DNA from: Streptomyces sp. WP-1
GTDB lineage: Bacteria; Actinomycetota; Actinomycetes; Streptomycetales; Streptomycetaceae
Assembly (NCBI RefSeq): GCF_030450125.1
Contig: NZ_CP123923.1
Coordinates: 992,001-1,056,000 of the forward strand
Length of the DNA stretch: 64,000 nt
Direction of reading: 5' to 3'
Under the pieces are notes generated by a model. The model saw only the letters and a list, made by a program, of their open reading frames with translations, did no database searches and was not told where the DNA came from. Both the position numbers and the translations under genes were made by a program. Shown here one piece after another: positions 24,523 through 41,681 of the stretch; position 1 is the first letter of the stretch; each line of letters opens with the position of its first letter.

Positions 24523-25737
24523 TCAGGCGGCGTCCAGGATGCCGGCGGGGACGCGCGGGCCCGAGACGAGCAGGAAGTCGCCGAGAGGGGTGGACAGCCT
24601 GCGGCGGCCCCGCAGGACGGCGGTCTCCTGGAGAGCCGGGGGCGTGTCGCCGAGGGCGGGAGTGCGGGCGTGGTCCCCGAGCGCCTCGGCGGGGATGCCG
24701 AAGGCCCACATGCCACCGCGGAACGCGGTGGGTGCGTCGATGCGCATGCTGAGCCGCTCCCAGACGGCGCTGCGCAGTCGGGACGGGCCGCGGTAGAAGC
24801 CGGCCCACTGGAGCCAGTTCAGGACGGCGATGTCCGGGCGCCGCAGCGTGGGCCTTCGGCGGCGCGGGCGGGGTGCCCCGGGCAGGAGCCCGCCGTCGGC
24901 CAGCAGTCCGGCGCGCCCCGCCGCAGCGACCATGCGCCGGTAGCCGTCGTGCAGCCCCAGCCGGTCGATCAGCTCGGTCAGCAGGGCGCGGTCCTCTGCT
25001 GTCAGCCGGACGGCGAGAAGCCAGGTGTCGACGGCGTCCCGCAGACCCAGGGCGCGTTCGAGTCCTTCGAGACAGAGGAAGAGCAGACTGGTCACGACGT
25101 CGTCCGCCGGCAGGCCCTCGCGCGCTGCGCCGTCCGCAGCGGCAGTGGCGGGAAGAGTGCGCCGGGGCATGCTGCGGCGGCCGTCACCGAGCCAGGCGAC
25201 GTCGGTCAGTTCGACGTAGAGCGGGCGAGCCAGGTCGTCACCGTGCGGGCGGTAGAACGTCAGCAGGTGGGCAGGGGCGTGGTCGACCTGGCGCACCGCG
25301 AGGTCGGTGTGCTGCCAGCCGTCCGAGATCAGCGCCTGCGCGGCGCGCCACAGCCCCGCTTCATCGGGGACGTGCAGATCGAGGTCGCCCTGGTGGCGCA
25401 GCAACGGGGCGGGGTAGCAGGCGGAGATGGCCAGGCCTTTGACCGGGCTCAGCCCGGGGACCACCTGGGCGAGCCGGTCCCGGACGGCGGCGTACGCCGC
25501 CAACCGGGCGCGGGCCTCGTCGAGTTCATGGACGCGGGAGGCGGACAGCGCCCCGGGGTGCGCGTGGTGGTAGGCGCTGAGCAGGGTGAGGCGGAACTTG
25601 GGGTCCGAGCGCTCGGCCCGGTGCAGCAGGCGGTCGGGGCGGTCCTGGTCCAGGCCGTAGTAGTCGCGGGTGGCCTGCACGATGCGTTCGGCCGAGTGCG
25701 GCGGATCGAGGTGTGGTGAGGCGTCCATGACGGGCAT
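24523..25737 (-). CDS. Nucleotidyltransferase-family protein (NTP_transf_5 type)
   Basis: 404 residues, ATG 25737. The segment 'KGLAISACYPAPLLRHQGDL' followed by 'DLHV' (about residues 99-122) has the Lys, Tyr-Pro, Arg and Gly-Asp-x-Asp pattern of the uncharacterised nucleotidyltransferase family PF14907; the Asp pair would bind metal. Members occur in some lasso-peptide and other ribosomal-peptide clusters, where their reaction is not settled. Here it is the last gene of a minus-strand unit with the FemAB-like and radical SAM genes. It could add a nucleotidyl group to an intermediate or act on the small peptide at 40287; both are inference. Confidence 0.7.
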   Translation of the reverse strand: MPVMDASPHLDPPHSAERIVQATRDYYGLDQDRPDRLLHRAERSDPKFRLTLLSAYHHAHPGALSASRVHELDEARARLAAYAAVRDRLAQVVPGLSPVKGLAISACYPAPLLRHQGDLDLHVPDEAGLWRAAQALISDGWQHTDLAVRQVDHAPAHLLTFYRPHGDDLARPLYVELTDVAWLGDGRRSMPRRTLPATAAADGAAREGLPADDVVTSLLFLCLEGLERALGLRDAVDTWLLAVRLTAEDRALLTELIDRLGLHDGYRRMVAAAGRAGLLADGGLLPGAPRPRRRRPTLRRPDIAVLNWLQWAGFYRGPSRLRSAVWERLSMRIDAPTAFRGGMWAFGIPAEALGDHARTPALGDTPPALQETAVLRGRRRLSTPLGDFLLVSGPRVPAGILDAA

Positions 25738-25763
25738 GTCGGGCTCCGAACGGTGCGTCGCGG

Positions 25764-26771
25764 TCAGCGGGCGGTGAGGGGCGCGGCGGGCAGCAGGTAA
25801 GCCGGGGTGGGGTAGGGCCGTGCGCCGAGCGACTCCTTGAAGCGGGTGACGCCCCCCGGGTGGGAGTCGCCCATGTGGTAGTGGGTGCAGCCCGCGTCGG
25901 CGGCCTCCTGGAGCGCCAGTTCATGCAGCAGGTGGTTGGCGCGGGTGGGCGCGGCCAGCGGCTGGGACATGGCACCCCGCCAGTACTTCGCCTGGCGGCC
26001 CTGGCGCAGCAGGATCACCGAGGCGGCGGCTTCGCCGCGGTACCAGGCCGTCCACACGGAGCAGGCGCCGCCGAGGCGGTCGCGGACCGTGCGCAGCTTG
26101 CGCAGCGGGTCGCGGGCCTCGATCCGGCGCCGCACCTGGTCCGCCGGCTCGCCGGACCGTGTGGCCCAGCGGTCCATGGACTGCTGGTAGAGGGCGTAGA
26201 AGACCTCCAGGTCGTGCGCGGTGCTGCCGCGGGTGACGTCCAGGCCGGAGCGGGCCGCCTTGCGCATGGAGCGTCGGGCGCCGGGGTGGAGCCGCTGCCG
26301 CCAGGCGCCGGCCGGGCCCGCGAGATCGACCACATGGGTGGTGCGCGGGGTGCGCCCGGCCCGCTCGGGAACGGCCTCGGCCCAGGGCCCCGCGGTGAGC
26401 GGGCCGATGCGCAGCCGGACCCGGCCGGGCACGTCGGCCAGGTCCGCCAGGACGGCCGCGGTATGCGCCGGAGTGGGCGGCCCGTCCGGGCAGAGCGGGC
26501 CGCCCACTCCCCATTCGGTGGGCCAGGAGGCCAGTTCGGGGCTGCCGGGTCCGGGCGGTCCGGTGTGCGTGACCAGCGGGAGCACGATCCGGGTGCCGTC
26601 GTCCCACCGGTAGAGGCGGCCCGCCTCCGCCCAGGGGCCCTCGGCACAGATCGCGTCCAGCCAGCCCGGGGTCTGTGTCGCCATCGCCTGCGGGTCCTGC
26701 CGCAGAGCCTGTTCCCAGACGGCGCGCGTCAGCGGGACGACCTCGGGCGGCGCGGCGCTCGCGCGGATCAC
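25764..26771 (-). CDS. FemAB/GNAT-like acyl or aminoacyl transferase
   Basis: 335 residues from GTG 26771, which overlaps the stop of the radical SAM gene (GTGA). The C-terminal half resembles the Acetyltransf_6/FemAB group: 'HPGARRSMRKAARSGLDVTR' (about 175-194), 'RLGGACSVWTAWYRGEAAAS', then 'QEAADAGCTHYHMGDSHPGG' and 'VTRFKESLGARPYP'. FemX-type relatives can transfer an amino acid from aminoacyl-tRNA, as PacB does in the uridyl peptide antibiotic pacidamycin; others transfer acyl groups from CoA. In this island it is a candidate for forming an amide on the nucleoside or peptide. Fold assignment is reasonable; donor and acceptor are not known. Confidence 0.75.
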   Translation of the reverse strand: MIRASAAPPEVVPLTRAVWEQALRQDPQAMATQTPGWLDAICAEGPWAEAGRLYRWDDGTRIVLPLVTHTGPPGPGSPELASWPTEWGVGGPLCPDGPPTPAHTAAVLADLADVPGRVRLRIGPLTAGPWAEAVPERAGRTPRTTHVVDLAGPAGAWRQRLHPGARRSMRKAARSGLDVTRGSTAHDLEVFYALYQQSMDRWATRSGEPADQVRRRIEARDPLRKLRTVRDRLGGACSVWTAWYRGEAAASVILLRQGRQAKYWRGAMSQPLAAPTRANHLLHELALQEAADAGCTHYHMGDSHPGGVTRFKESLGARPYPTPAYLLPAAPLTAR

Positions 26772-28114
26772 GTGGACGCGGGCGCGGGGACCGGCGCGGC
26801 GGCCCGCGGGATGCGCTCCTGAACCCTCGTCAGCCGGGACTCGGGACCGAAGATGTGGGAGTAGTGCTGCTCCGCCAGCTCGGGCGGCGTCGGTGTGGTC
26901 AGGGTGTGCCGGTTGTAGCGGCTGACCTCGGCGGTGGTCATGGTGGGCCGCAGGTCGTGCAGGGGTGTGTAGAGGGTGGGGCGCACCCGGACGTCGAGCG
27001 AGCGTGCGAAGGCGACGGTGGCGGCGGTGCCTTCGGGGGACGTACCGGGCAGGCCGACCATCACGAACGCGTTGAGTTCGATCCCCGCGTCGGCGCACCA
27101 GCGGGCCAGGCTCTCGAACCGGTCCTGGTGCACCCGCTTGGAGCGGGGCAGCGAACCGTGGCCGTCCTCGTCCAGGGTCTCCAGGCCGACCGAGATGCGC
27201 ACGCAGCCGGCGGCGCCCATCAGTTGCACCATTTTCTCGTCCAGGTGCGGCACCGTGGTGGTGCACTTCCACGGCAGACGGTCGGGCTGCTCCAGCAGGC
27301 GGCGGCACAGTTCCCTGGTCCAGGGGCGGTTCAGGGTGAAGGTCGGGGCGTAGAAGGACACGTACTCGAACGAGGGTTCCGCCTCGCGGGCGGCGGCGAT
27401 GTACTCCAGCACGGCGTCGACGCCCAGGCGGCGCTCGCGCAGGCCGAAGATCTCGTGCACATCGCAGTAGGAACAGCCGACGGGGCACCCCCGGGCGATC
27501 GGCACGACCAGTTCACGGCGGAACGGGATGCCGCAGAACTTGCGGTCGTCGCGGGCGTACAGGCGCTCGTAGGCCTCGTAGGGGATCTCGCGGACGTCGG
27601 GCAGCGCCCACTCGTCCGGTTCCAGGGTGCGGCCCGGGGCGGTGGGCGCGGTCCAGCCGTCGGCGGTGCGTACCTGGACACCTGGCAACGGCCGCTCGGG
27701 CTCCCCGGCGAGTACGGCCTCGACGTAGTCGCCCACCCCGCACTCGACGTCCCCCGAGCGCACCACGGCGTCAAGGTCGTAGCGCAGAAAGTGCCCGGGG
27801 TTCTGCGCGGACAGGCGGCCGAAGGTGATCACCTTGGCACCGGGGGACAGCTCGCGGGCGTAGGAGAGGAAGCGCTCGAACCCGTCGACGGCGTCGTAGT
27901 CGTTCATCATCGCGATGACGTCGTAACGGCCCTGGTACAGGGTGGCGCCGAGGTCCTTCCAGTTCACGTTCAGCGCTCCGCCGTCGAGCGCGTCGACCCG
28001 CTCGACACCGGGGCGGCGACGCAGGTACTCGGCGACTTCGAAGAGCGGCGTGTGGTGTCCGGCATTGAAGTAGCCGGGGACGTGTGGCGGCCAGACCACC
28101 AGGATTTTCGACAT
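26768..28114 (-). CDS. Radical SAM enzyme with B12-like N-domain (NikJ/PolH candidate)
   Basis: 448 residues, ATG 28114. Residues 1-130 look like a cobalamin-binding-type Rossmann domain ('MSKILVVWPPHVPGYF'). The radical SAM core carries the CxxxCxxC iron-sulfur motif 'CPVGCSYC' (Cys210, Cys214, Cys217), and later 'RISVGLETLDEDG' and 'ELNAFVMVGLPGTSPEG', as in B12-radical-SAM and MiaB-like enzymes. In nikkomycin/polyoxin biosynthesis the radical SAM enzyme NikJ/PolH cyclises 3'-enolpyruvyl-UMP to octosyl acid phosphate; the surrounding genes make that the leading hypothesis. Modification of the small peptide is less likely because the peptide has no Cys and no aromatic residue except His. It is first in a minus-strand unit and divergent from the aminotransferase. 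Confidence 0.88.
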   Translation of the reverse strand: MSKILVVWPPHVPGYFNAGHHTPLFEVAEYLRRRPGVERVDALDGGALNVNWKDLGATLYQGRYDVIAMMNDYDAVDGFERFLSYARELSPGAKVITFGRLSAQNPGHFLRYDLDAVVRSGDVECGVGDYVEAVLAGEPERPLPGVQVRTADGWTAPTAPGRTLEPDEWALPDVREIPYEAYERLYARDDRKFCGIPFRRELVVPIARGCPVGCSYCDVHEIFGLRERRLGVDAVLEYIAAAREAEPSFEYVSFYAPTFTLNRPWTRELCRRLLEQPDRLPWKCTTTVPHLDEKMVQLMGAAGCVRISVGLETLDEDGHGSLPRSKRVHQDRFESLARWCADAGIELNAFVMVGLPGTSPEGTAATVAFARSLDVRVRPTLYTPLHDLRPTMTTAEVSRYNRHTLTTPTPPELAEQHYSHIFGPESRLTRVQERIPRAAAPVPAPAST

Positions 28115-28173
28115 CAGCTCGCCTCACAGATCGACGGATCGCGACAGAGGTATATGACACCATTGATTTTCGT

Positions 28174-28238
28174 GAGTCAAGTAATCCTGACAGAACATGA
28201 CTCGCAATATTGACTTGCATTGACAGCATGCTTACTGT
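28174..28238. promoter_or_regulatory. Divergent island promoter with TGAC repeats
   Basis: In the AT-richer gap between the radical SAM and aminotransferase genes, TGAC motifs begin at 28188, 28198, 28211 and 28221 (spacings 10, 13, 10), and an inverted copy (TTGACTC on the minus strand) is at 28174-28180. TTGACT at 28210-28215 followed after 17 bases by TACTGT at 28233-28238 is a plausible promoter toward the aminotransferase. Similar arrays precede the MurA-like gene and the small peptide. Confidence 0.62.
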
Positions 28239-28290
28239 GCTTTCGTGCGCTCGGTCCCGCCGCGCGCCGGTGATCAGGAAGAAGGCCGCC

Positions 28291-29454
28291 ATGAAGGCTG
28301 CAAGCGCCGTGAGGACGCGCCCGACGATGCTGGAGGCGGTCGCCGCCTCGCCGGTGCAGGCCCTGCGGCCCTACCGCCGCCGCCGGGTCCCCGGTGCCGT
28401 CAATCTGGCCAGCAACGAACTGCGCCACCCCGTCCTGGAGCGGCTGGCGGGAGAGGCCCTGTCCGACCTGCCGGCCGCGGACCTGGCCGGCTATCCCTCC
28501 GGGACCGCGGTCACCCGGCTGCTGGCCGACCGCCTGCGCACCAGCCCCGAATCGCTGCTGCTGGTGGCCGGGTCGGACGACGCCTACCGGCTGCTCACCG
28601 AGGCGCTGGGCCCCACGCTCGGTGCCGCCGCGGTCACCCAGCAGCTCAACTACCAGTCGCTGCCGGACTACGCGCGGCTGCGCGGACTAGAGCTGCTGAC
28701 CGCCCCCTACCTGCCGCAGCGGCACGCCTTCGACACCGCGGAGCTGATCCGGCTCCAGGCCGCCCGTCCCGGGCGGGCCGTGGTGTGGCTGTCCAACCCC
28801 AACGGCCCCACCGGCGCGGTGCACACGCCGGAGGAACTGGAAAACCTCTGCGCGACGGTCGCCGCCGCCGGCAACCTGCTGGTCGTCGACGAGGTGTACC
28901 GCGACTTCCAGGACGGTCCGCGCTGGGCCGGCCCCGCGCGGACCGGGCACCACCGGCACCTGCTCCGGCTCCGCTCCTTCTCCAAGGGCTACGGACTGGC
29001 CGGGGCCCGCCTGGGCTACCTGCACGGCCACCCCGACCTGATCTCCTACCTGGCCCGCTGGAACACCCCGGGGCCGGTCTCCGTCACCGCGCTGCACCTG
29101 GCCGCGCATCTGCTGCGCCACGGCGACGAGGTCGCCGCCGTCCACCGCGAGGTCGCCGCCGACCGCGCCTGGTTCGCCACGGCGGCCGACGCCCTGCCGG
29201 GCTTCACCGCGCTGCCCTCGCAGGGGAACTTCGTCGCGGTGCGCGCCGGCACCGACCAGTTGGTGCGGCGCGGGCTGGACGCCTTGGCCGAGGAGGGGAT
29301 CACCGTCCGGGATCTGCGCCCGCTGGGCGTCATGGGACCGGTGCTGCGGGTCGGCATGGCGCAGCGGCCGGTGCTGCGGCGGGCGCTCACCGCGTTGTCC
29401 CAGGCGGCCGATGACCAGGCCACGCGCGACGGGGCGGGGGCGGGGCGGGAGTGA
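28291..29454 (+). CDS. HisC-like PLP aminotransferase (NikK/PolI candidate)
   Basis: 387 residues from ATG 28291, preceded by a GAAGAAGG site; the frame is open to 28210 but that would place the start inside the promoter. Class I/II aminotransferase of the histidinol-phosphate type: 'NPNGPTG' (169-175), 'VVDEVYRDF' (Asp200), PLP-lysine in 'SFSKGYGLAGARLGY' (Lys232) and the carboxylate-binding Arg240. In nikkomycin/polyoxin the HisC-like NikK/PolI installs the 5'-amino group of aminohexuronic acid, so this is the candidate for that step. It overlaps the following P-loop kinase by GTGA, which ties those two activities together. Confidence 0.88.
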   Translation: MKAASAVRTRPTMLEAVAASPVQALRPYRRRRVPGAVNLASNELRHPVLERLAGEALSDLPAADLAGYPSGTAVTRLLADRLRTSPESLLLVAGSDDAYRLLTEALGPTLGAAAVTQQLNYQSLPDYARLRGLELLTAPYLPQRHAFDTAELIRLQAARPGRAVVWLSNPNGPTGAVHTPEELENLCATVAAAGNLLVVDEVYRDFQDGPRWAGPARTGHHRHLLRLRSFSKGYGLAGARLGYLHGHPDLISYLARWNTPGPVSVTALHLAAHLLRHGDEVAAVHREVAADRAWFATAADALPGFTALPSQGNFVAVRAGTDQLVRRGLDALAEEGITVRDLRPLGVMGPVLRVGMAQRPVLRRALTALSQAADDQATRDGAGAGRE

Positions 29455-30155
29455 CGGCGGACCGAGCAGGCGGCGGACCGGCCCCCGAGCGGGTGGTGCT
29501 CGGGGCGCTGGCGCAGGCCCGGCGGGTGGCCGTGGTCGGCTGTCCGGGCAGCGGCAAGACCTGGCTGGCGACGCGCCTCGCCGCGCTCACCGGTCTGCCC
29601 TACGTCGGCCTGGACGACCACTACTTCGACCGGGCCTGGCAGGTCCGCGGTCCTGCGGAGCGGTGGCGGGCCGACCACGAGGTTCTTGTGCAGGGCACGT
29701 CCTGGGTGATGGACGGCCTGCACAGCACGACCCTTCCCGACCGGCTGCACCGGGCCGATGCGGTGGTGTGGCTGGACTACCCCACCCGGGTCTGCGTCCT
29801 CGGCTACCTGCGCCGCACCGCCCGCTGGCGGCTGACCGGACGTGCCCCCGGCTACGCCTCGGCCGCGGACGGCGCGGTGCGGCTCCCGCCGGACGCGGCG
29901 TCCTTCCTCCGCTTCATCCTCACCTTCCGCCGCCGCAGGCGCCCGGCGCTGGCGGAACTGCTGGCCCGTCAGGGCGCGGACTGCCCGGTGGTCCGCCTGA
30001 CCAGGCGGAGCCAGGTGCCGGGACTGCTGGAGGCGTTGACGGCGTCGGTGGACAGCGGTGAGGCGTTGACGGCGTCGGTGGACAGCGGTGGGCAGGGCAG
30101 GCCGGCTCGGCGGGACCGGAGGGACGCCGTGGCCGCCCCGGACGACAACCGTTAG
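29451..30155 (+). CDS. P-loop small-molecule kinase-like protein
   Basis: 234 residues from GTG 29451 (GTGA overlap). Walker A 'GCPGSGKT' at 30-37 follows a hydrophobic strand. The rest ('YVGLDDHYF', 'WVMDGLHSTTL', 'AVVWLDYP') resembles adenylate-kinase-like or FlaR-type topology-modulation P-loop proteins with an Arg-rich lid ('YLRRTARWRLTGR'). The nikkomycin/polyoxin pathway contains a cryptic 2'-phosphorylation of the nucleoside early in AHA assembly; this protein, co-translated with the aminotransferase, is the best candidate for such a kinase. A perfect 30-bp duplication adds ten residues near the C-terminus, in a disordered basic tail. Confidence 0.75.
   Translation: MTADRAGGGPAPERVVLGALAQARRVAVVGCPGSGKTWLATRLAALTGLPYVGLDDHYFDRAWQVRGPAERWRADHEVLVQGTSWVMDGLHSTTLPDRLHRADAVVWLDYPTRVCVLGYLRRTARWRLTGRAPGYASAADGAVRLPPDAASFLRFILTFRRRRRPALAELLARQGADCPVVRLTRRSQVPGLLEALTASVDSGEALTASVDSGGQGRPARRDRRDAVAAPDDNR
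30031..30090. repeat. Perfect 30-bp tandem duplication
   Basis: Bases 30031-30060 are repeated exactly at 30061-30090, giving EALTASVDSG-type decapeptides twice in a row within the kinase-like protein's tail. Identity of the copies indicates a recent event; the frame is kept. Confidence 0.95.
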
Positions 30156-30201
30156 CGGCCGCGGGCCGGCCGGCCCGCGGCCGGCCCGGAGCGACCGAGG
30201 C

Positions 30202-30744
30202 TCAGCGTTGTTCCGGTCGGGGCGGGGCGACGCCCAGTGCTTCCAGCGCCCGCGCGATGAACGGCGCCTTCGCGTCGTTGTAGCGGTGCACGTCCTCGGG
30301 CGCGGCCACGAGAGCGGCGCGCTTGGCGGCCTCATAGCCCGCGCGCAGCGCCGGGTCCTGGCGCAGGGCGTCGCGGAAGGCGAGGGTCTGGCGCCACATC
30401 GGATCGCCGCGGCGCACCAGGTGGACATTGGCGATCCGGACCCCGTCGGCGGTGCTGCGCGTGAGGTACCGGCGATCCGGCATGGCCGCCTCGAAGTCCG
30501 GCTTGTAGCGGTAGCCGTTCGCGACCAGCGCGCGCACGCACGCGGCACCCTCCGGCTCCAGCGCGGCCACGCCCACGAGCACGTCGAGCACGGGTTTGGC
30601 GGCCAGACCGGGCACGGCCGTGGAGCCGATGTGCTCCACGGCCGTGCCGACAGGGCACACGGCGGCGATCCGCGCCGCCTCGACGGCGAACGCCTCGGGC
30701 CAGACGGGGTCGTAAGCGGTGATGACCATGGGGTGGCGGCTCAC
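30202..30744 (-). CDS. GrpB-family protein
   Basis: 180 residues, ATG 30744, overlapping the stop of the upstream SDR gene (ATGA). The signature 'EHIGSTAVPGLAAKPVLDVL' (about 37-56) is diagnostic of the GrpB/UPF0157 family, a nucleotidyltransferase-like fold of uncertain reaction that is sometimes fused to dephospho-CoA kinase. The residues Gly-Ser and Asp-x-x-Val at the putative active site are present. It ends a three-gene minus-strand unit (phosphatase, SDR, GrpB) in the biosynthetic island, so it may act on a nucleotide intermediate; no direct precedent is known to me. Confidence 0.85.
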   Translation of the reverse strand: MSRHPMVITAYDPVWPEAFAVEAARIAAVCPVGTAVEHIGSTAVPGLAAKPVLDVLVGVAALEPEGAACVRALVANGYRYKPDFEAAMPDRRYLTRSTADGVRIANVHLVRRGDPMWRQTLAFRDALRQDPALRAGYEAAKRAALVAAPEDVHRYNDAKAPFIARALEALGVAPPRPEQR

Positions 30745-31571
30745 GTGCGCTGCTGCTCCACTTCCCCGCGTTCCTCGCGGTTCGGGTGTGTGCCCACGGG
30801 CCGGAGCGTATCCGGCCTCGGGTGCGGCGGCGGATCGGGCACCGGGCCGTGGAAGGACAACAAAGGGCTGCCCTCGGCACCAGGGCGCTTGTCGCGCTGG
30901 ATCACGGCATGGGTCAGCGGTTCGGTCTGGGTGTCCGCCAGCCGCCAGACCAGCTCGGCGACGTGGACCGGGTCGAGTGTGGTGCCGTAGTCCATGGCCG
31001 GGTACGGCGGCAGCGGCGGGACGGCCAGGCCGCCCAGCTCGACCAGCGTCGCCCGGCCGTCCGGTGAGTGCTCCCGTAGCTCCGGGAGCAGATTCCGGGT
31101 GAGCGCGGACTGCGCGGCGCGCAGGGCGCAGTAGTACGCCTGGTGCTGCCGGGCGCGCCAGGCGGAGACAGAGCCGACGGTGACCAGGTGCACCGGGTGC
31201 GGGTCCGCGGCGAGAATCCGGGCCAGCAGGGCGGCCGGCCCGGTGAGGCTGTGCCGGGTCAGGGCTTCGGCGTCGGCGGCGGTGAGTTCGGCGAAGGGCT
31301 GCTGGAGGAAGCGTCCGGCGACCCAGAACACCAGAGCGGGGCCGGGCAGGGCAGGGTCGACGGTCCAGGGCTGTGCGGCGTCGGCGAGGTCGACCAGGCG
31401 CGACTCGGCGCCCGGGGGGCTGCCCGCGCAGTCCTCGGCGCTGCCGAAGCGGAAGACGGGGACGCCCTGGCGCAGTGCCAGCTCCGTGAGAGCCCGGCCG
31501 AGTCCGGCGGCCTCACCGATGACGGCCGCGACCCGCGGAGCAGCGGTGGCACCCGGGGCTGCGGTGCTCAC
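30741..31571 (-). CDS. Degenerate short-chain dehydrogenase-like protein
   Basis: 276 residues from GTG 31571 (GTGA overlap with the phosphatase). It has a Rossmann N-terminus ('VAAVIGEAAGLGRALTELAL', a loose GxxxGxG), a serine segment 'TVGSVSAWRARQHQ', and then 'YCALRAAQSALTRNL', where the SDR active-site YxxxK has become YxxxR. It is clearly homologous to the SDR at 35206-36120, which keeps YxxxK. Loss of the catalytic lysine suggests altered chemistry or a structural role, perhaps as a partner of the other SDR. Substrate unknown. Confidence 0.78.
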   Translation of the reverse strand: MSTAAPGATAAPRVAAVIGEAAGLGRALTELALRQGVPVFRFGSAEDCAGSPPGAESRLVDLADAAQPWTVDPALPGPALVFWVAGRFLQQPFAELTAADAEALTRHSLTGPAALLARILAADPHPVHLVTVGSVSAWRARQHQAYYCALRAAQSALTRNLLPELREHSPDGRATLVELGGLAVPPLPPYPAMDYGTTLDPVHVAELVWRLADTQTEPLTHAVIQRDKRPGAEGSPLLSFHGPVPDPPPHPRPDTLRPVGTHPNREERGEVEQQRT

Positions 31572-32311: not shown

Positions 32312-32378
32312 CGCGGTGGCCTCGATTCCGGTTCGGTGATTCTCGGTTTACTCGGTCCCGGCAGCATCCCACAGTTTA

Positions 32379-33917: not shown

Positions 33918-33982
33918 CCGCGCGCCCCGACCCCGCGCGGCTTCCCCGCGCCCGACCCACGCGACCCGTACTGGAGCCTGCC

Positions 33983-35209: not shown

Positions 35210-36120
35210 GCGGTGCAAAGGGGCCGCGTGGGATCGCCGCGGTGCTCGGCGGCACTCGGGGGCTCGGCCGTGAACTGGCTCGCGAGGCAATGCGGCACGA
35301 CTGCGGCGTCGTCGTCTACGGCCGTTCCGCGGCCCCGGCCGAGGCGCCTGCGGCGGAGGTGCCCGAGGCGGAGACGCTCGCGGCGGAGGTGACCGCAGCG
35401 GCTGTGCCCGCGGCCCGGGCACAGCCGCTCCGCGCCCGGGCGCTGGACCTCACCGACCCTGCGGCCGTCGACGCCGTCGACCTGGCCGAACTGCGCGGGC
35501 CCGGCCCGCTGTACCTGTTCTGGGTCGCCGGGGAGTTCCGGAAACAGCCGCTCGCCGAGACCGCGGCCGAGGACGCCGACCGCCTCACCGCGCTGCTGTG
35601 GCAGGGGCCCGTGCGGCTGCTGCGCCGCCTTCTCGCCGACCGGCTGCGGCAGCCCTCGCCGCCGCAGCCGCTGCACCTGGTCACCGTCGCCTCGGCGTCC
35701 TCCTGGCGCGCCCGCGAGGAACAGAGCCTGTACTGCGGGCTCAAGGCGGCCCAGGCCGCGTTCACCCGGGCGCTCACGCCCGAACTGCTGCGCGCCGACC
35801 CGCGCAACCGCGTCACCCTGATCCAGCCCGGCGCCATGGCGACGCCCGGCTTCCACGATGTCCTCGGTCTGACACCGGAGGAGCTGGACGCCTTCATGGA
35901 CCCCGCCGTGGTCGCCGCTCACATCTGGCAGCTCGTCAACCGGCCCGAACACCCCGCCCGGCGGTTCCTCGAAGCGCATCTGCTGCGTGGCCCCGCCGAC
36001 CCGGTCACCGGGCACGCCGTGCCCCGCCTGCTGCTCGGCCCACAGGCTCCCGAAGCACCGCCGCCGCCCGACCGCCCGCACCGCTCCGGCCGGCCGCTGC
36101 CCGAGGCAGCCCGGCTGTGA
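35206..36120 (+). CDS. Short-chain dehydrogenase/reductase
   Basis: 304 residues, ATG 35206 overlapping the HPr-kinase-like stop. Cofactor loop 'VLGGTRGLGRELAREAM' (about 13-29), catalytic Ser in 'VTVASASSW', and YxxxK in 'YCGLKAAQAAF'. It is a homologue of the degenerate SDR at 30741-31571; both share the unusual 'FWVAG' strand and 'SW/AWRAR' segment. A low-complexity Ala/Glu stretch (residues about 42-68) interrupts the region after the first strand. Probably an NAD(P)-dependent oxidoreductase acting on a sugar or nucleoside intermediate. Conventional AHA pathways do not need an SDR, so it marks a difference from nikkomycin and polyoxin. Confidence 0.85.
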   Translation: MSGAKGPRGIAAVLGGTRGLGRELAREAMRHDCGVVVYGRSAAPAEAPAAEVPEAETLAAEVTAAAVPAARAQPLRARALDLTDPAAVDAVDLAELRGPGPLYLFWVAGEFRKQPLAETAAEDADRLTALLWQGPVRLLRRLLADRLRQPSPPQPLHLVTVASASSWRAREEQSLYCGLKAAQAAFTRALTPELLRADPRNRVTLIQPGAMATPGFHDVLGLTPEELDAFMDPAVVAAHIWQLVNRPEHPARRFLEAHLLRGPADPVTGHAVPRLLLGPQAPEAPPPPDRPHRSGRPLPEAARL

Positions 36121-36149
36121 CCCCCGAACCCCATCGCACGGAGGAGACC

Positions 36150-36767
36150 ATGCTCGACCTCGACGCTCCCGTCACGGCGCACCGGACGCCCTACATCTGG
36201 GCCCAGGCCGACGGCCTGCTGCCCCTCCCCCTGCTGGAGCGACTGCGCGGCGCGCTGCCCGCGACGGACCTGTTCGACCGCAAGGAGCGTGCCGCGGGCG
36301 GCGACAAGGCCTACGCCATGCAGGTGCTGCCGCTGGTGCGGGGGGGCGCGGACTGCGCGGTGCTGGACCGGCTGGACCCGGTCTGGCGCGACCTCGTCGA
36401 CGCCCTGCGCACCCCCGCCTACCTGGACTGGGTCCAGCGCGCCGTCGAGGTGCCCGTCACCGCGAGGCACGCCGAGATCGGGCTGTTCGTCTTCGGGACC
36501 GACGACCATGTCAGCTGCCACACCGACAAGTCCGGCAAGCTCGCCAGCCACGTCATCTACCTCAACGAAGCCTGGGGCCCGGACGACGGCGGCGCCTTCG
36601 AGGTGCACACCTCCGGCAGCGGCGGCACCCCGCACGCCACGCTGCCCCCCGAGGCGCCGCGCTCGGTGGTCTTCGCCCGGTCCGAGCACTCCTGGCACGC
36701 CGTGGAGCCGGTCCGCGCCGACGTCGGCCGGCTGCGCTGGACCATCCAGGTGGAGCTGTGGGCGTGA
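36150..36767 (+). CDS. 2-Oxoglutarate/Fe(II) oxygenase 1 (NikI/NikM-type candidate)
   Basis: 205 residues from ATG 36150 with GGAGGAGA upstream. Iron-binding facial triad: 'CHTDKSG' gives His124 and Asp126, 'SWHAV' gives His183; Arg194 or Arg196 ('GRLRWT') would bind 2-oxoglutarate. The strand order and spacing fit prolyl-4-hydroxylase-like oxygenases. Two such oxygenases (NikI/PolD and NikM/PolK) act in sequence on octosyl acid during AHA biosynthesis, and here too two lie side by side. Hydroxylation of the small peptide is an alternative. The next gene starts inside this stop codon (GTGA). Confidence 0.85.
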   Translation: MLDLDAPVTAHRTPYIWAQADGLLPLPLLERLRGALPATDLFDRKERAAGGDKAYAMQVLPLVRGGADCAVLDRLDPVWRDLVDALRTPAYLDWVQRAVEVPVTARHAEIGLFVFGTDDHVSCHTDKSGKLASHVIYLNEAWGPDDGGAFEVHTSGSGGTPHATLPPEAPRSVVFARSEHSWHAVEPVRADVGRLRWTIQVELWA

Positions 36768-37420
36768 ACGCGGGCGTGATCGACCTCCAGACGCCGGGCC
36801 ACCGCACGGTCCAGCAGGACCCCTATCCGTGGGCGGTGCTGCACGAGTGCTTCGGGGACCAGGGCGCCGCCGCGGACCTGGCCGCGCACTTCCCGGCCGG
36901 CGGATACACCCTGCGCGCCGGGGACGCCGCCACCGGCAAGGGCTACAGCACCTACAACCTCACCCTGGCCGACCGCGGCGAGCCCGCCCCCGAGGTGCGC
37001 GGGCTGGCGCCGCAGTGGCGCAGCCTGGTGGCGACGCTGCTCGGCGACGACTACCGGGCGTGGGTCGCGCGGACGATGGACACCGACCTGAACGGCTGTA
37101 CCGCGCACCTGCGCGCCGTCCGGTACGCACAGCAGGGCTGGATCGACCCGCACACGGACCGGGCGGACAAGGCGGTCACCCAGATCTGGTACTTCAACCC
37201 GGTCTGGCCGCCCGAATGGGCGGGCGCGCTGCGGGTGCTGCGCTCAGCCGACCCGGAGGACGTGGCGGCCGAGGTACGACCGCTGCTCGGCACCTCGGTG
37301 CTGATGCGGCCCTCGGCGAATTCCTGGCACTGCGTCACCCCGGTGGCGCCCGGTGCTCCGGACCGGCTCACCCTGCTGTTGCACTTCGTGCGGCCCGAGC
37401 CGACGGAGGGCGGGCGATGA
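36764..37420 (+). CDS. 2-Oxoglutarate/Fe(II) oxygenase 2 (NikI/NikM-type candidate)
   Basis: 218 residues from GTG 36764. Facial triad His130 and Asp132 ('DPHTDRADK') with His189 ('SWHCV'), and Arg201 for 2-oxoglutarate. 'IWYFNPVWPPEWAGALRVL' between them is the usual core strand pair. It shares fold but little sequence with the preceding oxygenase, so they are probably sequential enzymes and not a recent duplication. ATGA overlap with the ABC transporter ATPase places biosynthesis and export in one transcript. Confidence 0.87.
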   Translation: MNAGVIDLQTPGHRTVQQDPYPWAVLHECFGDQGAAADLAAHFPAGGYTLRAGDAATGKGYSTYNLTLADRGEPAPEVRGLAPQWRSLVATLLGDDYRAWVARTMDTDLNGCTAHLRAVRYAQQGWIDPHTDRADKAVTQIWYFNPVWPPEWAGALRVLRSADPEDVAAEVRPLLGTSVLMRPSANSWHCVTPVAPGAPDRLTLLLHFVRPEPTEGGR

Positions 37421-38448
37421 CGCGGGCCACCACCCCGGGCACCGACCCGGCCGGGGGCGGCGCGGTCGCTCCTTCCCCCGGTGCGGCCGTGTCGGTGCGC
37501 GCGCTGCGCCGCACCTTCCGCACCGGAGGCCGGCGGCGTGGTGCCGACACCGGCGAGCGGGTCGCCCTCCAGGGGATCGACCTGGACATCGCCGAGGGCG
37601 AGGTGCACGGACTGCTCGGACCGAACGGTGCCGGCAAGACCACCCTGTGCAAGATCCTTTCCACGGTGCTGCTGCCCAGCTCGGGCTCCGTGCACGTGCT
37701 CGGGCACGACGTGGCCGCCGACCCGGGGGCGGTGCGCCCGCTCATCGGCATCGTCTTCGGCGGTGAGCGCGGACTCTACGACCGGCTGACCGCCCGGCAG
37801 AACCTGGTCTACTGGGCCTCGTTGTACGGCATGTCGGGCCGCCGGCTGGCGACCCGCAGCGCCGAACTGCTGGAGCAGCTGGGGCTGGGCGCGCATGCCG
37901 ACGACCGGGTGGAGCGTTTCTCGCGCGGGATGAAGCAGCGCCTGCACCTGGCCCGGGGCCTGGTGCACGATCCGCAGGTGGTGCTCCTGGACGAGCCGAC
38001 CGCGGGCATGGACCCGGTCTCCGCGCACGGTTTCCGCGACCTGGTGACCGGGCTGCGCGCCGAGGGCCGCACGGTGCTGGTGACCACGCACGACATGGGC
38101 GAGGCGGAGGCGATCTGCGACCGGGTCACGCTGATCAACCGGGGCACGGTCGTCGCCAGCGCCACCCCGGCCGAGCTGGGCGCATGGGTGGCGGAGAGCG
38201 AGCGGGTGGTCGCGCGCGACGTGCCGCCCGGCGTCCTGGCCCGGCTGACGGGACTCACGGACGTCGAGGTCGTTCCCGCGGACGCCCAGGGGCTCACCGT
38301 GCTGCGCGTCGGCCCGGGCGGCGACACCTCCGCCGTCCTGCAACTGCTCGTCGGCGCCGGGGTGCGGGAGCTGTCCACCTCGCAGCCCGGCCTGGAGGAG
38401 GTCTACCTCCGGCTGATCGGGCGGCGCGGCATGGAGGTGTCGCGATGA
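37417..38448 (+). CDS. ABC transporter ATP-binding protein
   Basis: 343 residues, ATG 37417. Walker A 'GPNGAGKTT', signature 'FSRGMKQRLHLARGL', Walker B 'VVLLDEPTAGMDP' and the switch His in 'VTTHDMGEAEAI'. It resembles the DrrA/NatA type of drug and polysaccharide exporters (ABC-2). The N-terminal 35 residues are a low-complexity extension. With the next two genes it forms an exporter, presumably for the product of the island and likely also conferring self-resistance. Confidence 0.92.
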   Translation: MTRATTPGTDPAGGGAVAPSPGAAVSVRALRRTFRTGGRRRGADTGERVALQGIDLDIAEGEVHGLLGPNGAGKTTLCKILSTVLLPSSGSVHVLGHDVAADPGAVRPLIGIVFGGERGLYDRLTARQNLVYWASLYGMSGRRLATRSAELLEQLGLGAHADDRVERFSRGMKQRLHLARGLVHDPQVVLLDEPTAGMDPVSAHGFRDLVTGLRAEGRTVLVTTHDMGEAEAICDRVTLINRGTVVASATPAELGAWVAESERVVARDVPPGVLARLTGLTDVEVVPADAQGLTVLRVGPGGDTSAVLQLLVGAGVRELSTSQPGLEEVYLRLIGRRGMEVSR

Positions 38449-39266
38449 GCGCGGCAGTCACACCGCCGGGCGCGGCCAGGAGGCGGGCGGCGCGGGACAC
38501 CCGGGCCGCCGCGGCGGCGTTCCGGGTGCAACTCCTGCTGATCAGACGCTCGGTGGGCGATCTGCGGGTGCTGTTCACCGTGCCGCTGTACGCGCTGATC
38601 TTCCTGTCCATCGCGGCGGTGTCCGGCGACCACTCGCTGACCGCCTATGCGGTGCTGGCGCCGGGTCTGATCTCGCTGTGGAGCATGATGCTGTTCGCGG
38701 CGGGGGACCTGATCGGCCAGGACCGTTCCGCGGGCCGGCTGGAGGCCGTGGTGGCCACCCCGGTGCCGCTGTTCACCGTCGTCGCGGCGCGCCTGTCGGC
38801 TGTGGCGGCGGTGAGCCTGCTCTCCCTGGCCGAGTCCTGGGCTGTGGCCCGTTGGGTGTTCGACGCGCATGTGACGGTCGTGCACCCGTTGGCGTTCTGC
38901 GCGAGCCTGCTGGTCACCGCGTTCGCCATGACGGGCACGGCGACGGCGATGGCGTGTGCCTTCGTGCTCAGCCGTTCGGCACGGATCTTCCAGAACTCGC
39001 TCAGCTACCCCGTATACCTGCTGGGCGGAGTGCTGACCCCGGTGAGCACGCTCCCGCAGTGGCTGCGCCCGGCCAGTCGGCTGGTGTTCCTGACCTGGTC
39101 GGGCGGGCTGCTGCGGGACTCGCTGGCCGAGCGGGCGGTATCCGATCCGGCCGGCAGGCTGCTGGCGGTGCTGGCGCTGGGGCTCGTGGGCTTCGGCGCG
39201 GCCGCATGGCTGATGCGCAACGTCCTGGCGCGGGTGCGCGCCGCGGGCACCATGGGGCTCGCATGA
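38445..39266 (+). CDS. ABC-2 type transporter permease 1
   Basis: 273 residues, ATG 38445 (ATGA overlap). After a basic N-terminus there are about six hydrophobic helices, with the ABC-2 permease pattern 'QDRSAGRLEAVVATPVPLFT' in the first cytoplasmic loop and 'LGGVLTPVSTLPQWLRPASR' before the last helices. It pairs with the following permease and the preceding ATPase to form a heterodimeric exporter. Confidence 0.87.
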   Translation: MSAAVTPPGAARRRAARDTRAAAAAFRVQLLLIRRSVGDLRVLFTVPLYALIFLSIAAVSGDHSLTAYAVLAPGLISLWSMMLFAAGDLIGQDRSAGRLEAVVATPVPLFTVVAARLSAVAAVSLLSLAESWAVARWVFDAHVTVVHPLAFCASLLVTAFAMTGTATAMACAFVLSRSARIFQNSLSYPVYLLGGVLTPVSTLPQWLRPASRLVFLTWSGGLLRDSLAERAVSDPAGRLLAVLALGLVGFGAAAWLMRNVLARVRAAGTMGLA

Positions 39267-40066
39267 GTGCCCGGGTGCCCGCGTGGCGGATCGTGCGGTG
39301 CAGCGCCGTCAACGCCGCGGCCGACCTGCGGGCCACATACACCTGGTCGACCTGGCTCCTGGGCTGGCTGGTGCGGATGCTGTGCCAGGTGCTCTTCTTC
39401 ACCCTGGCCGGGCGGACCTTCTCGGGCGGAACGCACGAACGGTTCCTCTTCCTGGGCAACTCGCTCGCCTTGTGCGCGATCGAGGCGATGATGGTCGTCG
39501 CCTCCAGCGCCTGGGAACGCCGTGCGGGCACGCTGCCGTTGCTGGTGGCCGCGCCCGCGGACGTGGCCTGGATCTTCGTCGGCCGCAGCCTCCAGTGGCT
39601 GCCGAGCGGCATCGGCACCTCGCTGGTGGCACTGCTCGGCCTGGGGCCCTTTTTCGGCGTCCACTGGACCCCGGCCACGGCCGCGGTGGCGGCGCTGCTG
39701 GTCGCGTCGACCGCAGTGGGCATCTACTGCTTCGGACTGCTGCTGGCCGCGCTCGTACTGGGAGCCAGTTCCTGGCGCAATGTCGCGTCCAACGTCGCCT
39801 ATCTGTCGATGATGGCCGTCTGCGGCGTCGAAGTCCCGGTCGACTTCTGGCCGCCGCCCGTACGGGTGGTGGCCTGGGCCATGCCGTTGACCCATGGACT
39901 CGACGCGTTGCGGGCGCTGGTGGACGGCGGCGGCGCCGCGACCGTGGCCAGGGCCGCCCTGCTGTGCCTGGCCGTGGGCGCGGCCTGGCTGGTCGCCGCG
40001 CTCCTGCTGCTGCGCGGCATGGCGGCGCGCGGGCGGCGCGACGGCAGCATCGCATTCGCGATCTGA
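39263..40066 (+). CDS. ABC-2 type transporter permease 2
   Basis: 267 residues, ATG 39263 (ATGA overlap). Six hydrophobic helices; 'SSAWERRAGTLPLLVAAPAD' is the ABC-2 loop equivalent to that of permease 1, and 'MAVCGVEVPVDFWPPPVRVV' the typical late segment. Last gene of the long plus-strand transcript that starts at the MurA-like gene. Its stop codon is itself part of a TGACT motif at the head of the next promoter region. Confidence 0.86.
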   Translation: MSARVPAWRIVRCSAVNAAADLRATYTWSTWLLGWLVRMLCQVLFFTLAGRTFSGGTHERFLFLGNSLALCAIEAMMVVASSAWERRAGTLPLLVAAPADVAWIFVGRSLQWLPSGIGTSLVALLGLGPFFGVHWTPATAAVAALLVASTAVGIYCFGLLLAALVLGASSWRNVASNVAYLSMMAVCGVEVPVDFWPPPVRVVAWAMPLTHGLDALRALVDGGGAATVARAALLCLAVGAAWLVAALLLLRGMAARGRRDGSIAFAI

Positions 40067-40130
40067 CTTTCGTGAATTGAATGTGACAAGGGATATTGAC
40101 TCTCCAGTCACGTTCATGTTGGATATAAAT
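40064..40130 (+). promoter_or_regulatory. Promoter region of the small peptide with TGAC motifs
   Basis: TGAC motifs begin at 40064, 40084 and 40097, with an inverted copy at 40107-40111. TTGACT at 40096-40101 is a good -35; the -10 is uncertain (TTGGAT after 17 bases, or the TATAAA-like stretch near 40124). The 220-base gap from the permease to the peptide otherwise holds a GC-rich stretch with weak dyads and no gene. Confidence 0.58.
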
Positions 40131-40286
40131 CACGGCGCCGGGGAAACCCCGCCGGTCAAGACCGCGGGAACTGCGCGGCGGGCTTCGGTCCGCACGCAGC
40201 CCGCCGGGGCCGCGAAGGGAGCGGACCGGTCCGCCCGCCCCTGAGGTCTTCCGAGGGCCACCGCACATCGAGAGGAGGAATCCACC

Positions 40287-40355
40287 ATGATCCGTAACCA
40301 CGCCACCGCCATGCGTCCGCGCATCGACAAGATCAAGGTCCGCGCCGGCAAGTGA
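40287..40355 (+). CDS. 22-residue basic peptide, candidate ribosomal precursor or scaffold
   Basis: A small gene starts at ATG 40287, eight bases after a full AGGAGG, and encodes MIRNHATAMRPRIDKIKVRA plus a final GK. The peptide has four Arg, three Lys, one His and one Asp (about +6), no Cys, no Ser and no aromatic residue except His. It ends 17 bases before a perfect terminator hairpin, and a zinc M16 peptidase gene follows. Its own promoter, strong ribosome binding site and terminator mark it as a highly expressed short transcript, the usual design of a ribosomally made peptide-product precursor. Which residues are modified is unknown; coupling of its carboxyl end or a side chain to an AHA-like nucleoside is inference. 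Confidence 0.72.
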   Translation: MIRNHATAMRPRIDKIKVRAGK

Positions 40356-40372
40356 GCCGCTGAGTGACCGAC

Positions 40373-40405
40373 GGGGTGCCGCCAGGCCGAGCCTGGCGGC
40401 ACCCC
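40373..40405 (+). terminator. Terminator/attenuator hairpin after the small peptide gene
   Basis: A perfect 15-bp stem (40373-40387 with 40391-40405) and a three-base loop lie between the small peptide gene and the M16 peptidase. There is no T run. It would give a short abundant peptide mRNA with limited read-through into the peptidase. Confidence 0.88.
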
Positions 40406-40466
40406 GCCCTCATGTCGTCGTACGCCCTACCGCCTCGCGCGTCCCCGCCACCACCAGGAGACTCCC

Positions 40467-41681
40467 GTGACCGAACAACTGAGGGTCGGTAACGTGCCGG
40501 TCCTGCTGACTCACGAGCCCCGGCTCCGCACCACCAGCCTCTGTCTGGCCCTCGGCTTCGGCGGCCGCCACGACCCTGCGGGCGCCGAAGGCACCGCCCA
40601 CCTCTTCGAACACCTGGTCATGGCCCGCCCGCTGGACGGTGGAGCGCCCCTGTGCGAGCGGGTGGAGATGGCGGGCGGCTCGGTCAACGCCCGCACCGGC
40701 CCGGAGACGTTGCTGATCCACGCCCAGGTGCTCGCCGAGGACGCGCCGCAGACCCTGGAGTGGATGTCCCGCGCCCTGCTCGACTTCCAGCTCACCCAGG
40801 ACTGCCTGGACAGCGAGCGGCGGGTGGTGCTCCAGGAGATCGCCGCAGCTGTCGCCGATCCCAGTGACACGGTCCAGGACGCCTTCCTCGCGGCCCTGTT
40901 CGCCGGGCATCCGCTCGGCTCCCCGGTGGCAGGTGATCCCGCCAGCGTCGGCGCGATCACCCTGGACGGCATCCGCGGCGCCCATGCCGACGCACTGGCC
41001 ACCAGCCCCGTCGCCCTCGCCGCCGTGGGCGGCACCGACCCCGACGCGCTGCGCCGTGCTCTGGACGCCACCGGCCTCGGCGCCCTGACCGCGCAGCCGG
41101 TGCCCCGCCCCGCGGCCGAACCCGGCCCGGTGCGGCCGGCCACCGTCACTGCCTGGCCCGAGGACTTCACCTGGGTGATGGCCGGAGGCCGCGCGCCCGG
41201 CGCCGGGGACCCGCGCCGCCATGCCTACAACGTGCTCGCCCACCTGCTCGGTGCCAGCCCTGCCTCGCTTCTCTACGCCCGGCTGCGCAACAAGGAGGCG
41301 CTGGCGTACGACTTCCGCTCCTGGGCCCGCAACTACAGCGACGCCGGCGCCTGGCGGATGCTGGCGGGTGCCGAGCCCGGTAACGCGCCGCGCCTGCTCG
41401 ACGCCTTCCAGGAGATCCTGCGGCACGTCGCTGCCGAGGGCCCGGGCGACGAAGCCCTCGCCACCGCCGTGCACCAGGCCGTCGTCGAGACCGTGCTGGA
41501 GTCCGAGGCCCCGCTGGACCTGGCCATGGCGTTGGCCTCGCAGCGCGTCATGGTCGAGGAACCGTGGGACCCGGCGACGGAGATCGAGGCCCTGCGCGCG
41601 GTAACGGCCGAGCAGGTGGTCACCGCCGCGACCGAGCTGACCGCCGGGCTCGTCTGCGTGGTCCAGCCCCAGTCCGCGTGA
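40467..41681 (+). CDS. M16-family zinc peptidase
   Basis: 404 residues from GTG 40467 with CAGGAG upstream. The inverted zinc motif HxxEH is 'HLFEH' (His45, Glu48, His49), and Glu124 ('LQEIAAA') follows 74 residues later, exactly the HXXEH(X)74E spacing of active M16 peptidases. The C-terminal half contains the usual 'RLRNKEALAYDFRSWARN' pattern. Single-size M16 peptidases process ribosomal peptide precursors in several pathways (for example PqqF for PQQ and AlbF for subtilosin). Located directly behind the small peptide, it is the likely protease that trims or releases it. No inactive partner half is encoded nearby, so it may act as a homodimer. Confidence 0.88.
   Translation: MTEQLRVGNVPVLLTHEPRLRTTSLCLALGFGGRHDPAGAEGTAHLFEHLVMARPLDGGAPLCERVEMAGGSVNARTGPETLLIHAQVLAEDAPQTLEWMSRALLDFQLTQDCLDSERRVVLQEIAAAVADPSDTVQDAFLAALFAGHPLGSPVAGDPASVGAITLDGIRGAHADALATSPVALAAVGGTDPDALRRALDATGLGALTAQPVPRPAAEPGPVRPATVTAWPEDFTWVMAGGRAPGAGDPRRHAYNVLAHLLGASPASLLYARLRNKEALAYDFRSWARNYSDAGAWRMLAGAEPGNAPRLLDAFQEILRHVAAEGPGDEALATAVHQAVVETVLESEAPLDLAMALASQRVMVEEPWDPATEIEALRAVTAEQVVTAATELTAGLVCVVQPQSA

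Follow-up and report, generated by a model that had tools for sequence, protein, structure and literature searches.

The DNA considered here, called the window in the following, is a stretch of 64,000 nucleotides from Streptomyces sp. WP-1. Between positions 24523 and 41681 it holds one island of 18 genes, as called by a gene finder, in which relatives of the nikkomycin and polyoxin nucleoside genes stand together with a 22-codon peptide gene and with candidate genes for maturation and export of the peptide. An earlier note on this DNA had described such an island, and had proposed that its pathway attaches an aminohexuronic acid (AHA)-like nucleoside to a ribosomally made peptide. In the following, we show that the peptide gene belongs to a conserved family, that it is part of a portable module, which the earlier note missed, and that the pairing of this module with the nucleoside genes occurs repeatedly.

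The content and order of the island genes are the same in Streptacidiphilus neutrinimicus (locus L031), with protein identities of 71–90%. At the DNA level, the similarity to that species extends from 24527 to about 41768, both ends having been tested. Family assignments by Pfam and NCBIfam profiles (Table 1) agree with the enzyme families listed previously, and gene calls, profiles and the conservation in S. neutrinimicus all bear out a single island. Three details had to be corrected. A GrpB-family gene was missing from the list, the second short-chain dehydrogenase/reductase (SDR) gene most likely starts at 35206 and not at 35290, and the tandem-GNAT gene that accompanies M16 at the other loci is left in the window only as a short remnant.

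The P-loops of both the HprK-like protein and the small kinase are kept, as is the HxD...H motif in both 2-oxoglutarate (2OG)-Fe(II) oxygenases and the GDLDL motif in the NTP_transf_5 protein. In the M16 peptidase, HxxEH (residues 45–49) and the downstream Glu are kept, so the active site is indeed complete. The first SDR has kept its cofactor motif, and its YCALR sequence, the same in S. neutrinimicus, has Arg in place of the catalytic Lys; judging from these motifs, the two SDRs are perhaps an inactive/active pair. No island protein matched a tRNA synthetase, and a Trojan-horse action on tRNA synthetases is therefore not proposed for the window itself. None matched a class-defining enzyme of the known classes of ribosomally synthesized and post-translationally modified peptides (RiPPs; LanB/LanM, YcaO, lasso cyclase and others) above the curated Pfam or NCBIfam cut-offs. 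The RiPP-like matches in the island, such as ApyD and YhhC, are all sub-threshold.

Table 1. Genes and other features of the island (positions in the window).
Feature	Positions	Strand	Evidence or remark
NTP_transf_5 (PF14907) nucleotidyltransferase, peptide module	24523..25737	-	Pfam 7.5e-12
FemAB-like/Acetyltransf_6 transferase (GNAT fold), nucleoside side	25764..26771	-	PF13480 9.6e-14; also in peptide-less loci G698, G523
Radical SAM protein, NikJ/PolH group	26768..28114	-	Pfam 4.7e-21; CPVGCSYC
HisC-like class I/II aminotransferase, putative NikK/PolI-like role	28327..29454	+	3.1e-40
Small P-loop kinase, putative PolQ2-like role	29493..30155	+	weak Pfam; NCBIfam P-loop family 1.2e-24, below cut-off
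GrpB-family protein	30202..30744	-	7.8e-45
First SDR, catalytic Lys replaced by Arg	30741..31571	-	Pfam profile and motif inspection
Tyrosine-phosphatase-like protein, putative PolJ/NikL-like role	31568..32311	-	2.1e-32
NikO-like enolpyruvyl transferase (EPSP/MurA family)	32523..33917	+	Pfam 2e-26; best PDB match NikO 4fqd
HPr-kinase-like protein	33983..35209	+	P-loop GPSGSGKS, SDD; Pfam 0.0054 (weak); NCBIfam HprK_rel_B 1.9e-7, below cut-off
Second SDR, YxxxK	35206..36120	+	start 35206 preferred
2OG-Fe(II) oxygenase, HxD...H	36117..36767	+	profile and motif
2OG-Fe(II) oxygenase, HxD...H	36758..37420	+	profile and motif
ABC exporter ATPase, DrrA-like, peptide module	37417..38448	+	profile
ABC-2 permease, peptide module	38445..39266	+	profile
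ABC-2 permease, peptide module	39275..40066	+	profile
AGGAGG ribosome-binding site of peptide gene	40273..40278	+	
22-residue peptide gene MIRNHATAMRPRIDKIKVRAGK	40287..40355	+	22-locus conserved family
Hairpin, 16-bp stem, between peptide and M16 genes	40372..40406	+	-44.2 kcal/mol
M16 peptidase, N and C domains, active site complete, peptide module	40467..41681	+	profile
Tandem-GNAT gene remnant	41678..~41768	+	start of intact homologue: L031:19237-20091

We now turn to the peptide gene. It is preceded by a perfect AGGAGG, and its predicted product has no match in Pfam or NCBIfam. A family with the pattern MxRNHxxxLRPRLDKxxxxxx was found at 22 loci, counting seven similar plasmids once. Met1, His5, Pro11, Arg12 and Lys15 are invariant in all 22 peptides and Leu13 in 21, the variability being greatest in the C-terminal 4–7 residues. 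A ribosome-binding-site-like sequence (weakest at G540) and a hairpin 3′ of the stop codon are present at every locus. In the window, to which the test against dinucleotide shuffles was confined, the hairpin has a z value of −5.08 and is reached by 0 of 200 shuffles; with mononucleotide shuffles, z ranges from −1.4 to −6.1 across the loci, with the second copy in the own genome as the weakest. A scan around the peptide gene found no promoter-like site, and no terminator-like T run was found in the window. The core of the peptide, written as a regular expression, does not occur in 438,241 bases of other fetched loci. Over nine pairs of peptide genes with changes, the nonsynonymous-to-synonymous ratio (pN/pS) is 0–0.8, one further pair being unchanged, and the single-pair tests are weak. 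Similar open reading frames (ORFs) also stand upstream of M16 in clusters that were found via NikO or HprK, independently of the peptide (S. neutrinimicus, G111, G150, G540, G532 and G542). Judged by these comparisons, the 22-codon gene is real and conserved.

The surveys for this family are based on samples of genomes, and several loci were read over 20–36 kb; absences given below refer to the DNA read. A hidden Markov model of the peptide detected 17 loci at E ≤ 1.3e-4 in 16 of 392 Streptomyces-like genomes, the own genome included, all 17 with M16; three of them (the window, G111 and G150) were in the profile. The peptide is also present in 7 of 70 Kitasatospora-like genomes, and on seven Streptomyces plasmids at 77% identity plus a weak eighth, with a related M16 in all eight. 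None of the eight plasmid records annotates a gene under the peptide match; the gene table is incomplete. Over the 22 loci, M16 is found at all, NTP_transf_5 and each ABC subunit at 21 and the tandem GNAT at 20. The constant peptide set thus consists of the peptide, M16, the tandem GNAT, NTP_transf_5 and the ABC exporter. At 21 loci M16 is the next gene on the same strand; the exception is G101, where peptide gene and operon are divergent. Among the weak cases, the M16 genes of G168, G038 and G097 were seen as fragments by the gene finder, and G168 is without GNAT, NTP_transf_5 and ABC genes within the 20 kb read.

The reverse test started from M16 in the 70 Kitasatospora-like genomes. A module-type M16 (439–587 bits) is present in nine of these, and a distant M16 (199–219 bits) in all 70. 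Six of the nine have the peptide directly upstream (three of them, G540, G532 and G542, were in the profile), and in G572 peptide and M16 are split at contig ends. The remaining two, G424 (L152) and G518 (L153), have an altered HxxEH motif (HLLER and HLLAR) and no peptide seen upstream; from these motifs, a catalytically dead branch is possible. At the 11 distant-M16 loci that were read, no peptide was found. In the Streptomyces-like search, 5 of 22 matches had E ≥ 0.02. Four weak matches (L114–L117) were dropped, since these loci carry neither M16 nor other module genes, except for a single unspecific ABC match, and the fifth, L099, which lies 6 kb from the true G372 copy, was not used. Among the candidates scored in a first-look search of 197 genomes outside the Streptomycetaceae, no peptide was confirmed, and three matches (L142–L144, about 3 kb each, E 1e-3 to 8e-3) were dropped for want of any module gene. 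Two homology searches, scoring the candidates that share most words, gave at least 11 and at least 23 matches. A Crossiella homologue of the GNAT (P0146) suggests that the module may reach beyond the Streptomycetaceae.

On the nucleoside side, the enolpyruvyl transferase had been called MurA-like. The family is correct, and the best of 36 PDB matches is NikO (4fqd, 199 bits), compared to 108 bits for the best MurA, which makes the island enzyme by sequence a NikO relative rather than a MurA. The island radical SAM protein has the CxxxCxxC motif in the form CPVGCSYC, and shows 54% identity to a Streptomyces asoensis homologue (P0107) in the same tree, presumably PolH, in a comparison that contained no experimentally named NikJ/PolH sequence. 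Many of its homologues carry the name B12-binding-domain radical SAM. The phosphatase, 2OG oxygenases, aminotransferase and kinase of the nucleoside set are present at the family level. The NikO and radical SAM assignments support placing the nucleoside genes in the NikO/NikJ(PolH) group, of octosyl-acid/AHA type, in line with the nikkomycin/polyoxin route named earlier. PolH and PolJ are described as converting 3′-enolpyruvyl-UMP to octosyl acid (PMC5365060). For malayamycin, a review lists the same kinds of enzymes (MalO, MalJ, MalL, MalM/MalI and MalK), and it names a TruD-like enzyme for C-nucleosides (PMC8724604). TruD homologues are found in the peptide-bearing G540 (L054:3749-4795) and in the peptide-less G523.

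In total, 11 NikO/NikJ loci were considered, namely 10 of the 16 matching genomes among 394 searched, and G111. The other six genomes (G414, G512, G514, G524, G561 and G563) were dropped because of MurA-like scores of 109–118 bits; in G414 (L058), the one of the six that was read, no NikJ-like gene was found. The peptide module is present at five of the 11 loci (the window, S. neutrinimicus, G111, G540 and G532), and wherever the M16 module and NikO/NikJ occur together, the small peptide gene is conserved (5/5). The earlier note had named the lack of such a gene in homologous clusters as grounds for refutation, and these clusters show the opposite. At the other six loci, of which G503, G573 and G548 were read over 20 kb each, and on a Mesorhizobium plasmid, none of M16, GNAT, NTP_transf_5 and the two permeases was found. 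HprK-like and FemAB-like genes are present in two peptide-less NikO/NikJ loci. Accordingly, of the genes that had been assigned to the peptide product, M16, NTP_transf_5 and the ABC exporter keep that assignment, and the HprK-like and FemAB-like genes lose it. HprK was rejected as a module marker for the same reason. It matched in 67 of 392 Streptomyces-like genomes, only three matches being strong (own genome, G150 and G111), in 3 of 70 Kitasatospora-like genomes, and in 1 of 394 at the class level (own genome only).

Two of the loci without the module deserve mention. In G698 (L057, L067, L068), NikO/NikJ, HprK-like and FemAB-like genes lie beside a giant ORF of at least 8050 residues, which extends past the end of the DNA read and is probably a non-ribosomal peptide synthetase or polyketide synthase; G698 is perhaps a non-ribosomal counterpart. 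Plasmid p_3 of Mesorhizobium huakuii (L077) has genes for a NikJ-like radical SAM protein, TruD, a 2OG oxygenase, a phosphatase and a carbamoyltransferase, and no peptide module in 31 kb.

It is important to point out that the module is not restricted to nucleoside genes. It was also found beside at least five other gene sets. One is an AMP-ligase/NDK-like/pentapeptide/UDP-sugar set (own genome at 5156344, S. goshikiensis and G272), with an extra histidyl-tRNA synthetase (HisRS) in the first two. Another combines a methionyl-tRNA synthetase (MetRS)-like protein with a class III aminotransferase (G324, G095), to which a P450/dCTP-deaminase-like set in G110 is possibly related. The others are a NUDIX/thymidylate-kinase-like set (G300, and G168 by gene order), a histidine-phosphatase/PPDK/ARMT1 set (G226, and G038 by gene order) and S-adenosylhomocysteinase-like sets (G542, HUAS 15-9/G101). 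The partner sets of G097, G024, G372, G150 and G151 were not classed. From their families, the partner genes would make small molecules. The proposal of a pathway for an AHA-like nucleoside and a peptide thus holds with respect to the pairing of the two gene sets, and fails in so far as the peptide set is not specific to nucleosides.

The set in the own genome belongs to a second full copy of the module (L100:10001-16027, G000:C1:5156344 onward), in a cluster like that of the S. goshikiensis plasmids. Its HisRS has only 31% identity to the other HisRS, and would therefore be an extra copy of the kind seen for self-resistance, which makes histidyl-tRNA synthetase a candidate target in the case of this second cluster. 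In G324 (L101/L118) and G095 (L102/L119), the MetRS-like protein, of 511–512 residues and 85.5% mutual identity, adjoins the module; it could serve self-resistance or be a synthetase-like ligase.

The tree of M16 proteins puts the five nucleoside loci at three different positions, and a single clade is rejected by the approximately unbiased (AU) test (p-AU 9.6e-67). The second M16 of G111 was not labelled as nucleoside in this tree; including it leads to four changes and the same verdict (p-AU 1.4e-95). Parsimony on the M16 tree gives gains and losses that are indistinguishable. The same nucleoside route is therefore found with the module from at least three of the module's lineages. In the best radical-SAM tree, the peptide-linked loci do not form a clade. 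The module is nearly always whole or absent, and on this comparative evidence it is portable. In G111 (L049/L073) it is split: two M16 genes, which belong to different branches, are separated by about 19 kb, one with the peptide and GNAT beside it, the other with NTP_transf_5 and the ABC genes.

It is instructive to compare the island with known systems. With the octosyl-acid pathways of nikkomycin, polyoxin and malayamycin it shares the NikO-like and NikJ(PolH)-like enzymes, the phosphatase, kinase, 2OG oxygenases and aminotransferase. Nikkomycin-type peptidyl nucleosides are formed by an ATP-grasp amide ligase (NikS/PolG), whereas the island has no match to such a ligase, and instead has the peptide gene, M16, NTP_transf_5, HprK-like, FemAB-like and ABC-2 exporter genes. 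Microcin C is a ribosomal peptide of 7 residues joined to a nucleotide by the ThiF-type adenylating enzyme MccB. The tiny peptide gene, the nucleotide-type partner and the exporter are common to both systems, as is a GNAT in most other module loci, but no MccB match is present in the island, the peptide has about 20 residues, and one family serves many partner sets. In the pyrroloquinoline quinone (PQQ) pathway, PqqA of about 20 residues, with a Glu-Tyr pair, is processed with an M16 peptidase, the radical SAM enzyme PqqE and PqqD. The size of the peptide and M16 are shared, whereas no PqqE-type radical SAM (that of the island is NikJ-like) or PqqD match was found, and the peptide lacks the Glu-Tyr pair. 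In pseudomycoidin, an HPr-kinase homologue and a nucleotidyltransferase are described as putting phosphate-linked hexoses on a ribosomal lasso peptide (PMC8498205). Both kinds of gene are present in the island (the HprK matches below cut-offs), but there is no match to a lasso cyclase (asparagine-synthetase-like) or to B1/B2, no conserved C-terminal Ser, and no HprK at 15 of the 22 loci. We take the lasso-tailoring nucleotidyltransferase to belong to the same PF14907 family. No prior description of the present system was found in searches of an open-access library, in line with the earlier note; most subscription papers, preprints and MIBiG lie outside that scope, and a description there is possible.

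The genes, their order, the conserved peptide family and the repeated pairing of the nucleoside and peptide modules are established directly, and from there on the attachment of nucleoside to peptide is what we infer. The best explanation, which we hold at about even confidence, is that a nikkomycin/polyoxin-like set is combined in the island with a portable module for a peptide of about 20 residues, the product likely being a nucleoside covalently carried by the peptide. In this mechanism, UMP would be converted to an amino-octosyl or AHA-like nucleoside by the NikO-like and NikJ-like enzymes, the phosphatase, kinase, 2OG oxygenases and aminotransferase. Since the hairpin downstream of the peptide gene would limit read-through towards M16, the peptide would be produced in excess. 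Nucleoside and peptide would be joined through a phosphate by the HprK-like kinase and NTP_transf_5, the phosphate coming from the HprK-like kinase or from another kinase of the partner pathway. Candidate sites for the bond are Lys15, His5 and the C terminus. The role of NTP_transf_5 is suggested by the pseudomycoidin precedent and by its kept nucleotidyltransferase signature, KG..YP..R..DxD..E being invariant over the 14 module homologues aligned. M16 would cleave off the conserved N-terminal portion, so that the variable, basic C-terminal tail remains as the core, and the conjugate would leave the cell through the ABC transporter, perhaps as a Trojan horse for uptake by competitors.

A number of observations weigh against this explanation. 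No product, mass or reaction of the island is known. None of the 18 island proteins matches ATP-grasp at Pfam E ≤ 0.01, and no ThiF-type ligase is among their Pfam matches. The 22-peptide family has no conserved Ser/Thr as phosphate acceptor. At 17 of the 22 module loci no NikO/NikJ genes were found, and in the radical-SAM tree the AU test does not reject a single origin for the loci with the peptide (p-AU 0.16). The closest NCBIfam model for both 2OG proteins, below cut-off, is the peptide-modifying YhhC, and they may for this reason not serve the nucleoside. NTP_transf_5 of the window lies 15 kb from the peptide gene and has 24–28% identity to the aligned module members outside S. neutrinimicus. 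Of seven other NTP_transf_5 proteins scanned against PF14907, all matched weakly and one exceeded the cut-off, and the structure model, with a predicted local distance difference test (pLDDT) score of 47, is too poor for a fold search. Since the module is without HprK at 15/22 loci, the joining chemistry cannot depend on HprK alone. Finally, the tandem-GNAT gene of the window is a short remnant that stops at the limit of similarity to S. neutrinimicus; a deletion may have occurred at the right end of the island.

We have also considered the possibility that the peptide is a temporary carrier or leader, on which the small molecule is built or handled before M16 removes all or nearly all of it. 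PQQ, which is cut out of PqqA, and the amino-group carrier proteins offer precedents. This is the foremost alternative, although we regard it as rather unlikely. The highest conservation is at His5 and Arg10–Lys15 with only short variable ends, one peptide family stands beside quite different gene sets, and M16 was found at all 22 loci, all of which a carrier would account for. However, the ABC exporter in the module (21/22) is at least as compatible with an exported conjugate, by eye the peptide is without the Glu-Tyr pair of PqqA, and there is no ATP-grasp carrier ligase among the island Pfam matches.

Another option is that the module makes a separate secreted signal or bacteriocin, merely co-inherited with the clusters and not part of their products. 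A module that changes its partners and is, with few exceptions, either complete or missing would be expected in such a case, and large BTAD-type regulators lie near many of its copies. On the other hand, no gene outside the module is common to all loci compared and no constant receptor was seen, NTP_transf_5 and the tandem GNAT would need to be peptide-modifying only, and, according to the M16 tree, at least three switches were involved in its pairing with one and the same nucleoside route. We therefore consider this scenario, too, unlikely, and it ranks behind the carrier. A leader peptide that regulates the M16 operon by means of an attenuator hairpin would explain the short ORF and hairpin just before M16 at 21/22 loci, but is very improbable: the loci agree in the amino acid sequence of the peptide and differ in the sequence of the hairpin, the peptide has no run of one amino acid, no terminator-like T run was found in the window, and the peptide gene of G101 is not oriented towards the operon. 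An ordinary nikkomycin-like cluster beside an unrelated chance ORF, for which the six of 11 NikO/NikJ loci without the peptide might be cited, is refuted by the peptide profile search, the residue conservation and the 22-locus comparison with M16 and hairpin, together with the lack of core-motif matches in the control bases.

Taken together, the comparisons confirm the earlier observation, and partly support and extend its interpretation. The peptide family is real and has no model in Pfam or NCBIfam, and its portable module, for maturation and export, is coupled here to an octosyl-type nucleoside pathway. A wider version, which we put forward tentatively as a possibility, is that streptomycetes possess a plug-in ribosomal peptide tag fitted to at least six different pathways for small molecules, of which many are nucleotide-like and some are protected by additional tRNA synthetases, each product becoming a peptide-carried Trojan horse; the window would then be the octosyl-nucleoside version. 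If true, a hybrid family of natural products, with nucleoside-like warheads on ribosomal peptides, would have gone unseen in Streptomyces genomes because precursor genes of 60–70 bases are easily missed, and one carrier serving many warheads would be a new principle of antibiotic building and delivery. The peptide motif together with M16 provides a simple search handle.

In that case, a function would also follow for NTP_transf_5 and for the nameless tandem-GNAT family. No useful match was obtained when PDB sequences were searched with profiles of NTP_transf_5, GNAT and HprK, and plasmid searches with HprK and NTP_transf_5 gave no matches. The model of the tandem GNAT has a pLDDT of 88.9, and its structural neighbours include tRNA-dependent peptide synthases, FemX and mycothiol synthase, on account of which it could acylate the conjugate or give resistance. 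No function like that of FemX or the aminoacyl-tRNA-dependent peptide synthases Sba18/Sbb17 is claimed, as the likeness is one of fold only and many other GNATs score alike or higher; in addition, the window copy is a remnant. In G151 (L103:6723-8663), the tandem GNAT and NTP_transf_5 are fused into one protein of 646 residues, and a gene for a B12-binding radical SAM protein (L103:5100-6617) adjoins this fusion.

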